NCBI RefSeq assembly: GCF_030532195.1
Contig: NZ_JAUNLP010000001.1
Span: 310,001-374,000 of the forward strand
Direction of reading: 5' to 3'
Origin: Corynebacterium sp.
GTDB lineage: Bacteria; Actinomycetota; Actinomycetes; Mycobacteriales; Mycobacteriaceae
DNA: 64,000 nt
Shown: positions 23,043-27,793 of the stretch, in pieces
How positions within the stretch are numbered: the first letter of the stretch is position 1
Layout of the letters: the number at the start of each line of letters is the position of its first letter
Notes under the pieces: generated by a model
The model's database searches: none
Told to the model about the DNA's origin: nothing
Seen by the model: the letters and a program-made list of their open reading frames with translations, nothing else
Position numbers and translations under genes: made by a program

Positions 23043-24149
23043 CTAGCGCCCAGTCGACTTCTGTGAATCCCCACCGGTGGTGGAGGATTCTTCCGCAGTT
23101 GCCGATGCCGTGCCACTGTCGCTGACGTCGTGGGGATCATCATGCTGCTCGCGCGGCAGGGCGATGCCGCCCATGTTCTCATCGCGCTTGATCTTGAGCC
23201 AGGAGGCCAGAACAGTAACGACCAGCACGATGACAATGAATGCCAGCGACGTCCAAGTGGATACCTCCGGCACACTGACGTTTTCACCGCCGTTAATAAA
23301 CGGCAGGTTGTTTTCGTGCAGTGCGTGCAGCAGCAGCTTGACACCAATGAATGCCAGGATGACACCGAGGCCGTAGGCGAGGTAGACAAGGCGGTCAAGC
23401 AGGCCGTCCAGCAGGAAGTACATCTGCCGCAGGCCCATCAGGGCCAGCGCATTGGCGGTAAAGACGATGTATGCCTCATCCGTCAGGCCGTAAATGGCCG
23501 GAATGGAGTCGAACGCAAACATGACGTCAATGAGACCAATGGCAACCAGAGCAATAGCCAGCGGCGTCAGGTAGTGCTTGCCATTTTCCTTCTTGGTCAG
23601 CTTGTCACCGTTGTAGTGATCCGTAATCGGCACGACGCGACGCAGCCACTGAATAATCTTCATGTCTGAAGGGTCGGTTTCTGGCTTATCGACGGCTTCG
23701 TCGTAAATCGTCTTGATAGCCGTGTAAATCAAGAAGATGGCAAACAGGTAGAAGACATCCGACCATGCGCTAATGACGGCGGCACCAGCCCAAATGAACA
23801 GACCTCGGAATACCAGGGCCAGGCCAATACCGAAGAGCAGCACCTTCTGCTGGTACTTGCGGGGAATTTTGAACGCACCAATAATCAGCGCAAAGACGAA
23901 CAGATTGTCAATACTGAGCGCCTTTTCGGTGATGTAGCCCGATAAGAACTCGATACCACGGTGGTGATCCCACAGCAGCCACACCATTCCGCCGAATATC
24001 AAGGCCAGGACGACATAAAACAGCGTCCAAAGACCAGCTTCTTTGATGGTGGGTTCGTGCGGGGTGCGAACGTGTGCGTAGAAGTCGAAGGTGAGGAAGC
24101 CCAAGACAACCACAATGGTGATAATCCATACCAATGCGGGCACATGCAT
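23043..24149 (-). CDS. TerC family integral membrane protein (probable Mn exporter)
   Basis: A 368-residue TerC/Alx protein with about nine membrane segments. Conserved acidic membrane motifs are FLSGYITEKALSIDNLFVF and VMFAFDSIPAIYGLT. TerC proteins of this type are linked to manganese export and metal loading of secreted proteins. The last 50 residues are polar (Ser/Thr/Asp-rich). The ATG is 10 bases from a hairpin that contains the GGAGG ribosome-binding site, and a riboswitch-like leader lies upstream, supporting a role in Mn balance. pgsA starts 31 bases after its stop. Confidence 0.9.
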   Translation of the reverse strand: MHVPALVWIITIVVVLGFLTFDFYAHVRTPHEPTIKEAGLWTLFYVVLALIFGGMVWLLWDHHRGIEFLSGYITEKALSIDNLFVFALIIGAFKIPRKYQQKVLLFGIGLALVFRGLFIWAGAAVISAWSDVFYLFAIFLIYTAIKTIYDEAVDKPETDPSDMKIIQWLRRVVPITDHYNGDKLTKKENGKHYLTPLAIALVAIGLIDVMFAFDSIPAIYGLTDEAYIVFTANALALMGLRQMYFLLDGLLDRLVYLAYGLGVILAFIGVKLLLHALHENNLPFINGGENVSVPEVSTWTSLAFIVIVLVVTVLASWLKIKRDENMGGIALPREQHDDPHDVSDSGTASATAEESSTTGGDSQKSTGR

Positions 24150-24159
24150 TTTTAAATAT

Positions 24160-24367
24160 GACCTCCGGTCGTGCGAACATGAACCGGAGGTCTCTCCTGC
24201 TCCTACCGCTGGTCTCCCCGCCTCATCGGGCGGGCCGAGCCTGTGGCAGAAGTGACGGCACCGGGATTGTCTGACGCGAGCCGTGGCTACGCCCTCAATC
24301 CGTGCTGACGATAACCGTCACGGAAAAGTGAGAAATTCTCACTTACCGGGGATACTCCCCTCCACGT
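24160..24367 (-). promoter_or_regulatory. yybP-ykoY-type (Mn2+) riboswitch leader of terC
   Basis: The minus-strand leader begins with GGAGGGGAGTA (near 24363) and continues with the block ATCGTCAGCACGG, as in yybP-ykoY riboswitches. A GC-rich stem follows (24217-24234), and the leader ends with GAGAGACCTCC and a perfect hairpin (24183-24192 with 24160-24169). That last stem buries the GGAGG that should start terC translation. The 5' purine block could pair with GACCTCC instead and free it. A -10-like TATAGT lies at 24374-24379. Family assignment is by eye; mode (translation control) is inferred. Confidence 0.72.
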
Positions 24368-24434
24368 GATGAAACTATACACGTCGGTATGGGGTCTAGG
24401 AGCGCCGGGCACCAAACTCAGTGCGTATCGCCCG
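24368..24434. other. terC promoter region
   Basis: Between the riboswitch and the ftsK terminator. It holds the minus-strand -10 element TATAGT (24374-24379). I see no gene here. Confidence 0.5.
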
Positions 24435-24444
24435 AATAGAAAAA

Positions 24445-24478
24445 GTGACGTGCTGAGAAAACAATCTCAACACGTCAC
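24445..24478 (-). terminator. Terminator after ftsK
   Basis: GTGACGTG-CTGAG pairs with CTCAA-CACGTCAC, and a run of T follows on the minus strand (rich A at 24440-24444). It separates ftsK from terC. Confidence 0.85.
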
Positions 24479-24493
24479 CGTATTCTCCGTTGC

Positions 24494-27400
24494 CTATGCC
24501 ATCGACTGATTTGGGTCGGCGTCGACGACATTGACTTCTTCCTTTGGCGCGTCTTCTGGGTTGGCGCCCTTAATCATCCACTGGATGGTTTCAAGTTCCT
24601 CCGGTTTGACCAGTACCTCACGGGCCTTGGAGCCTTCCGAAGGGCCGACCACGCCGCGAGTCTCCATCAGATCCATCAGACGACCGGCCTTGGCAAAGCC
24701 GACGCGCATCTTGCGCTGCAGCATCGACGTCGAGCCGTGCTGGGCAGTGACGACCAGCTCGACTGCCTGCAGCAGGTCTTCGAGGTCATCGCCAATGTCC
24801 GGATCAATGTTTCGCTCGGCCTCTGCGTTCTTGTCCTCGGTGACACCCTCGGTGTAGTCCGGTTCCGCCTGAGACTTAGCGGCTTCCACGACGGCCTGAA
24901 TCTCTTCGTCAGTAACGAAGGCACCCTGGATACGGCGTGGCTTGCCGGCGCCCTGCGGAATGAATAGGCCATCACCCATACCGATGAGCTTTTCTGCACC
25001 GCCCTGGTCCAGAATCACTCGGGAGTCGGTCAGCGATGAGGTGGCAAATGCCAGGCGGGAAGGCACGTTGGTCTTAATCAGACCGGTAACCACGTCAACA
25101 GACGGGCGCTGCGTTGCCAGCACCAGGTGGATACCGGCGGCGCGAGCCTTCTGCGTAATGCGAACGATGGCGTCTTCGATATCGCGTGGCGCGGTCATCA
25201 TCAAGTCAGCCAACTCGTCGACCACACAGACGATGTACGGGTACGGGCGGTACTCGCGCTCCGAGCCCAGCGGTGTCGTAATCTCACCGGACTTGACCTT
25301 GCGGTTGAAGTCCTTGATGTGACGCACGCGAGCAGCCTTCATGTCCATGTAGCGCTGCTCCATCTCCTCCACCAACCACTGCAGTGCGGCAGCGGCCTTC
25401 TTTGGCTGAGTGATGATTGGCGTAATCAGGTGCGGAATGCCCTCGTACGGAGTCAGCTCCACCATCTTCGGGTCCACCAGAATCAGGCGAACCTCCTCCG
25501 GCGTGGCACGGGTGAGCAACGACACCAGCATGGAGTTGACGAATGCCGACTTACCGGAACCGGTCGAACCAGCGACGAGCAGATGCGGCATCTTCTGGAT
25601 GGAGTGCGAAATGAACTCGCCCTCAATATCCTTACCCAGGCCAATCAGCATCGGGTCATCGTTGGCAACGGTCTTCGGCGCCCGCAGTACGTCGGAGAGC
25701 CTGACCATCTCGCGGTCATTATTCGGCACCTCAATGCCGACTGCCGACTTACCCGGAATCGGAGTCAGCAGGCGCACATTGTCAGTCGCCACAGCGTAGG
25801 CAATGTTGGACTGCAGGTTCGTGATCTTCGAAACCTTCACGCCCGGGCCCAGCTCGACTTCATAACGGGTCACCGTCGGGCCACGCGAGAATCCAGTCAC
25901 CGCGGCATCGACCTTGAACTCCGCAAAGACTTCCGTGATTGCCTCGATCATGCGGTCATTGGTCGCAGTGCGAGTCTTCGGACGCTCACCCGGAATCAGC
26001 AAGTCTGTCGACGGCAGCTGGTAGTCGGATTCGGCCTCGCGTGCCGCCGAAGATTCATTGCCAGCGTTGTCCTTTTCCAATTCCGACTTTGGAGTCGTTG
26101 CCGGAATCTTGGAGGCATCGATACCGGAGCGCGCAGCGATAGCATTCATCGTGCGACGGGTGGCATCAGAGATTGCATCGTCATTGCCCTCGGCAGCAGT
26201 CGGCCGCGCCTGTTCCGCCTGTGGTGCGGACTGTTGCGGCTGCGGCTTGGTCGCAGGCTCCACTGGCTTATGCTCCACTACCTCATGCTGCGACCGCTGC
26301 TGAGCAGCCCGCTGTGCCTGGGCAGTTGGGTACTCGGAGTATTCGTCATACTCCGGGGCAGCATAGTCAGGCTCATGCTGCGGCTGAGCAGAGGTAGCCC
26401 CAACTGCCGGAATGGTCGATTCCGTCTCTTCAGTATCGCGGTGGACAGCATCCGAGGTCGGTTCATCGACATACTCGGCTGCCGGGAATTCCGGCTCCGG
26501 CTGCGCACGCTTTGCCGAGGCACCAAAATCGGCGCGGTCAAACTGCATTGTGCGAGCGGAGTCGTAATCGATGTCCTCCACAGACTGCGTATTCTTCGGA
26601 ACACTCCGGCGGGAACGCGGAGCCTCATCTAGAAGATCGTAGAGGTTGCCGTCACCATCATGATCGTCGTAAGGCGCAGCACTAGCGCTACGACGCGACT
26701 CGGCCTCACGGCGTGGTGCGCGATAACGGGAGCGCTCAGCCGAACGGGACGAGCGGCGAGGGCGACGCTCAATTAGCTGCGTGGGCTTATCGAAATCTTC
26801 GTCGGCGTAGTCCGAATCGGACGGTGCACTGGCACGGCGATTGAGCATGGCGTCCACATCGCCGTAGGGGTCATCGGATTCGATCTCATCATTTTTGCCG
26901 CGTGAGGACCATTCGCTGAAGTTGAGGTACTCCTTGACGGCATCAATAAGCTGACGCACAGTGGCGCCAGAGAGCACAAGCGCGCCATAGAAGATAATGC
27001 CGAGCAGCAAAATGACGGCGACCCATGACGTAAAGCCAGCAGCAAGCGGCGAACCGATGTATCCGCCAATCGCACCGCCGGCGGCGCGTCGGCCTTCCCA
27101 GTCAGCAGGACAGCCCGACCCGATGTGGACGATCGCCAGCAGACCGACGGTAATAAGGGTCGCGCCCGTGGCGACGGCTGGCAGACGCTCCGAGCGCGGA
27201 GTCGTCTCCAGCATCATCATCACGGAAATCGCGCCGAGCGCGATGGGCAGCACAAAGGCACCGATGCCGATGATGGTTCGCACCGATGTCTCAATGACCT
27301 CTCCCACCGGACCGGCCAGGTGGAACCATGTCGACCCGGCGAGCACAATGGCCAGCGCCATGACCAACAAGGCCACGCCGTCCTTCGAGCCAGACTCGCC

Positions 27401-27793
27401 GCTGTCATGAACATCCAGGTCAACGTCGTCAACGTCGGTTGGTGCCGGTGGGTCAATCAAGCCATCGTCATATCCGCTGGCAGCTTTACGACGCTTCCTG
27501 CGAGGCGTCGTCGTTGAAAAATCGGCGTCACTTTCGCGCCGCGCCATATTCTCCTCATCATCTCGCTTTGATTTGCGACCACCAATCTTCCGGGCAACAC
27601 CTGCCACGCCACGGGCCGTTTCCGACCAGGCGTTGGCAAGGCTTTTACCGACGAAGGACATCGCACTTGGCGTGCGCTCAAACTCCTCCGTCGCATTGTG
27701 CACGGGATAGCGACGAGTGGCATCGATGTCCGCATTGCGGTTCGATGCTCGACGATTGTCGGTTCTGGTTCGGCTGGTCGCTGACATGCCCAA
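24494..27793 (-). CDS. ftsK: DNA translocase FtsK
   Basis: Membrane-anchored motor that pumps chromosomal DNA through the division septum. The 1099 residues have four to five N-terminal membrane helices (about 135-285), a long acidic, Pro/Gln/Ser-rich linker (about 300-590), and the RecA-like motor with Walker [16 protein letters not shown], Walker [10 protein letters not shown] and the motif [17 protein letters not shown]. The winged-helix gamma domain closes the chain ([39 protein letters not shown]). ATG at 27793. Operator-like dyads lie upstream at 27830-27869. Confidence 0.96.

Follow-up and report, generated by a model that had tools for sequence, protein, structure and literature searches.

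A yybP-ykoY-class Mn2+ riboswitch probably controls translation of terC in Corynebacterium

Results

The terC locus and the anatomy of its leader

The window analysed here is a 64,000-nt stretch of a Corynebacterium genome that carries terC and, across an intergenic stretch, its upstream neighbour ftsK (Table 1). TerC is a 368-aa metal transporter of the TerC/Alx family; the closest terC genes among named relatives include that of C. amycolatum (86% protein identity in a protein search), and comparison of TerC with solved structures by sequence gave no match. In the order of transcription, the ftsK-terC intergenic stretch holds a terminator-like hairpin, the hexamer TATAGT and a structured leader. 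The hairpin, a strong one followed by T-rich sequence, separates ftsK from the terC promoter and was the sole terminator-like match when the leader region of the window was scanned. A scan for consensus sigma-70 promoters found none; instead, comparison made visible a conserved TANNNT hexamer, which lies 16-22 bases 5' of GGAGG in 81 of 82 leaders and of which TATAGT, probably the -10 element of terC, is the copy in the window. Elsewhere in the set, two adjacent terC genes were observed (G074:C36:79934-82132), the second being more divergent (53% identity).

The initial annotation had described this leader as a yybP-ykoY-like Mn riboswitch that appears to mask the terC ribosome-binding site. 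We checked its sequence elements and found each of them in place: the 5' block, the CGTCA-CAC-type block, the perfect 10-bp hairpin, and an upstream purine block, GGAGG, able to pair with CCUCC. The spacing of 10 bases that it gave is exact for the distance from the end of the hairpin to the terC ATG (24149), with GGAGG itself lying 12 bases 5'. The hairpin is followed in the window by the tail ATATTTAAAA, which contains no U-tract.

Table 1. Features of the ftsK-terC region in the window, in the order of transcription.
Feature	Position	Strand	Remark
ftsK	24494-27793	minus	upstream neighbour of terC
Terminator-like hairpin	24444-24479	minus	runs 24479-24444; downstream of ftsK, then T-rich
TATAGT, probable -10 element	24374-24379	minus	TANNNT comparison
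Leader	24150-24374	minus	
5' block, GGAGGGGAGTA	24353-24363	minus	sequence and coordinates checked
P1.1 5' strand, GGAGG	24359-24363	minus	proposed to pair with 24186-24190 in ligand-bound form
L1 5' strand, GGAGUA	24353-24358	minus	invariant, 62/62
P1.2 5' strand, UCC	24350-24352	minus	pairs with 24195-24197
Extended P2 hairpin, GGUAAGUGAG...CUCACUUUUCC	24322-24347	minus	fold and alignment
P3 5' strand with L3	24300-24321	minus	pairs with 24252-24269
L3, CGUCAGCAC	24302-24310	minus	CGTCA invariant, 62/62
CGTCA-CAC-type block, CGTCAGCAC	24302-24310	minus	
P3 3' strand, CAAUCCCGGUGCCGUCAC	24252-24269	minus	alignment and covariation
P4 arm	24200-24252	minus	outer stem CUUCUGCC (24245-24252)/GGUAGGAG (24200-24207); inserted hairpin CCCGCCC...GGCGGG; fold
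Hairpin inserted in P4	24211-24234	minus	ends in a second GGGGAGACC; alignment
P1.2 3' strand GGA, L1 3' strand GAGA, P1.1 3' strand CCUCC (24186-24190)	24186-24197	minus	AGACCUC invariant, 62/62
Perfect 10-bp hairpin, GACCTCCGGT/ACCGGAGGTC	24183-24192/24160-24169	minus	
Anti-ribosome-binding-site arm, GACCUCCGGU	24183-24192	minus	carries shared CCUCC
Out-of-frame ATG in hairpin loop	24178-24180		90-aa ORF overlaps terC
Ribosome-binding-site arm, ACCGGAGGUC	24160-24169	minus	GGAGG at 24162-24166; extra pairs in 81/82 leaders
terC	23043-24149	minus	TIGR03718, E 3e-108; Pfam TerC, E 1.5e-49

The peripheral arms vary among relatives. By alignment, the window's own clade and the jeikeium clade have the extended P2, which is short or absent in most Corynebacterium. 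At the end of the hairpin inserted in P4 of the window lies a second GGGGAGACC, which nearly repeats the conserved L1/P1.1 3' block; this feature is missing from the aligned relatives. In C. propinquum and a close relative (L085, L099), the P4 arm is ~100 nt longer and the core is intact.

The fold is conserved and covaries across Corynebacterium

The leader folds at -105.7 kcal/mol, compared to -80.6 kcal/mol for dinucleotide shuffles (z -5.35), and GGGGAGTA and CGTCANCAC were found 5' of the terC start codon in 80 of 80 Corynebacterium loci that had been picked by protein similarity alone. On these two grounds, the features of the leader are far beyond chance. AGACCUC and the ribosome-binding-site hairpin are also present in the leaders of these loci.

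We then assessed covariation in an alignment of 62 non-redundant aptamers. Without a supplied structure, RNAalifold recovered P1.1, L1, P1.2, P3 and P4, with compensatory change in 14 of 26 pairs. In the structure named here, 90.2% of cells are paired, compared to 39-56% when the partners are slid, and two-sided changes occur in 213 cells against 65.5 expected from shuffles. Changes on both sides were seen at eight of ten pairs in P3, at three of five consensus pairs in P4 and at two of four pairs in P1.2, where column pair 12/198 is C-G in 48, U-A in 9 and A-U in 1 of the 62 sequences. The arrangement is a four-way junction of P1, P3, P4 and a possibly reduced P2. GGAGUA (L1), CGUCA (L3) and AGACCUC are invariant throughout the alignment. 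The P1.1 pairs are present in 60-62 of 62 sequences yet almost invariant, so that covariation lends this helix no support; this is what one would expect of a CCUCC with two partners and a GGAGG that must stay.

A Corynebacterium-trained model recovers proven Mn riboswitches

The initial annotation had named a search with RF00080, the yybP-ykoY covariance model, as a check, and the outcome depends on the model used. With the RF00080 model of Rfam 15, the window gave no match at the gathering threshold (45 bits), nor at E <= 10. The same model gave no match in 16 other Corynebacterium leaders, with the same result when one of them (L065) was rescanned alone, and its best actinobacterial score was 27.1 bits. 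Other Rfam families that appeared with low scores (DUF3800-XI, mir families and a plant-virus pseudoknot) all fell below their cut-offs and were dismissed as chance. As a control we ran RF00080 on two proven members from E. coli (alx leader, L112:1477-1599; mntP leader, L113:962-1058): alx was not reported, and mntP scored 41.6 bits, less than the gathering score of 45. Since the model misses alx and underscores mntP, its failure to match the window leader is uninformative. The RF00080 model of Rfam 15 seems overly narrow, with a long U-rich stretch in its 3' half.

A second covariance model, R1, was built from the Corynebacterium leader alignment only and contains no proteobacterial sequences. 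R1 found E. coli alx at the correct position with 51.5 bits (E 6.9e-11), and it placed mntP correctly with a weak score of 22.6 bits with filters off. One copy was found in the window's genome (E <= 1). In the same 41 related genomes, RF00080 finds one (E <= 0.001) and R1 finds 36 (E <= 1), or 35 at E <= 0.001. R1 matched all 37 Corynebacterium genomes scanned, where scores on terC leaders are partly circular because those leaders or their close kin trained the model; the matches in E. coli and in other genera are free of this circularity. Beyond the genus, R1 matches occur in 135 of 200 genomes of the order (E <= 0.1) and in 20 of 100 genomes of the phylum (E <= 0.001). The present Rfam RF00080 model loses the actinobacterial branch of the class. 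Of the two-part refuting condition in the initial annotation, no match to the family model and no Mn response, the first part did come about with the current Rfam model. The recovery of alx and mntP by R1, together with the annotation of C. glutamicum and C. pseudotuberculosis relatives by older Rfam releases, supports the terC leader as a genuine yybP-ykoY-class Mn riboswitch, as judged by sequence comparison.

Each of the best 20 order-level R1 matches lies 5' of a TerC-like gene and carries the same CCUCC/GGAGG hairpin, the gene calls having been made by eye from N-termini in translations and DNA. We also examined nine secondary R1 matches: one is 5' of a CDF cation-efflux gene and one 5' of a GDT1 cation antiporter gene, both assigned by Pfam, and seven are 5' of TerC genes assigned by eye. 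The CDF copy (L142:1896-1997, minus strand), directly 5' of its gene, is a second Mn-riboswitch copy in a Corynebacterium genome (G009); the GDT1 copy (L150:450-553), whose gene codes for a cation/proton antiporter, is in a genome of the same order as the window. That several cation-exporter families lie downstream favours Mn, the established ligand of the class, as the signal.

One CCUCC with two mutually exclusive partners

CCUCC is common to P1.1 and the ribosome-binding-site hairpin, and its two partners are mutually exclusive. In minimum-energy folds, the partner of CCUCC is the downstream GGAG arm for 78 of 82 leaders and the 5' GGAGG for none, which upholds, computationally, the proposed masking of the terC ribosome-binding site. 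At least two pairs beyond CCUCC/GGAGG extend this hairpin in 81 of 82 leaders, and its compensatory changes include G-C to A-T and C-G to T-A. By nearest-neighbour energies, which take no account of L1-L3 docking, the cost of forcing P1.1 is 12.5 kcal/mol for the window and has a median of 11.25 kcal/mol over the 82 leaders. With a gap of this size, Mn binding alone may not pay the cost at equilibrium, and a co-transcriptional, kinetic switch is assumed for this reason.

The family relationship, the conserved fold, the two exclusive partners of CCUCC and the linkage to terC come directly from these computations. Mn as the ligand, the direction of the switch and export by TerC are inferred. Transcription would start just 5' of P1.1. 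At low Mn, CCUCC would be held by the GGAGG ribosome-binding site within the 10-bp hairpin (24160-24192), and terC would be poorly translated. At high Mn2+, an ion bound between L1 and L3 of the four-way junction would stabilise P1.1; the 5' GGAGG would then take CCUCC, leaving the ribosome-binding site free for TerC to be made. The choice would be made during transcription, as P1.1 would be complete before the ribosome-binding-site arm exists. That Mn turns translation on is suggested by analogy with the stabilisation of P1.1 in L. lactis and the unmasking seen at E. coli mntP. Work on the yybP-ykoY class has established both the chemistry of L1/L3 and the switching of P1.1 (PMC11087558, PMC6754395); in this class an L3 adenosine, A41 in L. 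lactis and A48 in X. oryzae, contacts Mn2+ through N7 (PMC6754395). By its sequence context, A24306, the A of CGUCA, probably corresponds to this adenosine.

Discussion

Taken together, our data make it probable that a yybP-ykoY-class Mn2+ riboswitch in the terC leader controls a TerC-type exporter, probably of Mn, through a translational ON platform. The alternative that deserves most attention keeps the same Mn riboswitch and makes transcription its main target, through intrinsic or Rho-dependent termination; masking of the ribosome-binding site would then be secondary. Members of the class in B. subtilis and L. lactis use terminators, and Rho is known to act at E. coli riboswitches and at the C. 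glutamicum FMN riboswitch (literature). At least four consecutive T follow within 11 nt of the GGAG arm in 21 of 82 Corynebacterium leaders, including that of C. amycolatum (L032), among the window's nearest relatives, which has six T after a long-looped hairpin that our terminator scan, limited to loops of up to 8 nt, cannot judge. In the window, however, the hairpin and U-tract of an intrinsic terminator are not found together in the leader, the lone terminator-like match being the upstream one of ftsK; the reading of the initial annotation, control of translation rather than of termination, is supported for the window by this lack of a U-tract. Most relatives likewise have no U-tract, and the ribosome-binding site is kept in the hairpin in 81 of 82. 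We consider control mainly by transcription unlikely here. In L032, L060, L064, L065, L080, L087 and L094, a run of five or six T lies a short way past the ribosome-binding-site hairpin, and these runs suggest that termination and translation control may be combined in some species.

The remaining alternatives concern what the RNA senses, or whether it senses anything. An RNA of this fold might respond mainly to alkaline pH or to another divalent metal, given that alx, the closest characterised relative by score, is also responsive to alkaline pH (PMC9603457); in E. coli, however, pH and Mn act together, and the invariance of L1 and of the L3 Mn adenosine, along with the cation exporters downstream, makes this improbable. 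The hairpin could also be a static attenuator of translation, or belong to a leader-peptide system, with no ligand involved. Minimum-energy folds do prefer the closed hairpin, and its loop holds an out-of-frame ATG that opens an ORF overlapping terC, but the conserved L1/L3 and the covariation of the four-way junction are left unexplained, and we give this reading very little credence. Finally, an unrelated structured leader could resemble the family in short motifs only, as the lack of an RF00080 match in Rfam 15 might be taken to indicate. This is strongly disfavoured by the match to alx: RF00080 misses E. coli alx too, R1 locates alx and mntP correctly with no proteobacterial training, and older RF00080 gave the C. 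glutamicum terC leader 49.1 bits. Of all the readings it is the one we hold least credible.

Three things are added here: how the translational platform is built, how the element is distributed across the phylum, and that the present Rfam model fails to recognise it. A plausible but unproven riboswitch reading now has computational support, and the element is a ready target for work on Mn homeostasis in corynebacteria and other actinobacteria. A negative from the current Rfam Mn model is not to be trusted, as it misses a textbook E. coli member and finds one of 41 genomes, compared to 36 with the genus-trained model. More tentatively, and short of an even chance in our estimate, the leaders may represent a large, largely unexamined actinobacterial sub-branch of Mn riboswitches. 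Its members would have two identical GGAGG strings, one a 5' decoy and the other the true ribosome-binding site, that take turns at a single CCUCC, and repeated gain or loss of the U-tract within one genus would shift control between purely translational and combined transcription-and-translation modes.

The class itself was counted among widely distributed families already in 2013 (PMC3766115). C. glutamicum cg2157 (terC) is annotated as yybP-ykoY (RF00080, older Rfam) with a start site from RNA-seq (PMC3890552), another C. glutamicum study lists two yybP-ykoY leaders, and a C. pseudotuberculosis leader is annotated as RF00080, again with an older Rfam release (PMC3890534). Because Corynebacterium members were annotated in this way, the window element belongs to a known kind. 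The mapped C. glutamicum terC start lies 6 nt inside the old Rfam match (PMC3890552), a position that fits a transcription start just 5' of P1.1. Our search of open-licence literature yielded neither Mn-binding data nor data on regulation for actinobacterial copies; the Corynebacterium copies there are annotated or transcript-mapped only, and neither a mechanism nor an Mn response was seen to be described for them.

Compared to known systems, the C. glutamicum cg2157 and C. pseudotuberculosis leaders are of the same genus and element class, and that of C. glutamicum precedes the same gene. E. coli alx shares with the terC leader the fold, the L1/L3 blocks and the place 5' of a TerC/Alx-family exporter; it differs in the P2/P4 arms and the expression platform, and it also responds to pH. 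The platform that we propose for terC is more like that of E. coli mntP, a translational ON switch that unmasks the ribosome-binding site (PMC11647493). The mntP element, however, controls MntP rather than TerC, its L3 is GUCAACAUAC, and Rho-dependent termination has also been demonstrated for it. The L. lactis yybP-ykoY riboswitch, known from its crystal structure, shares the Mn-stabilised P1.1 switch helix (PMC11087558) and the invariant Mn-binding adenosine of L3 (PMC6754395), but it controls an intrinsic terminator instead of a ribosome-binding site.
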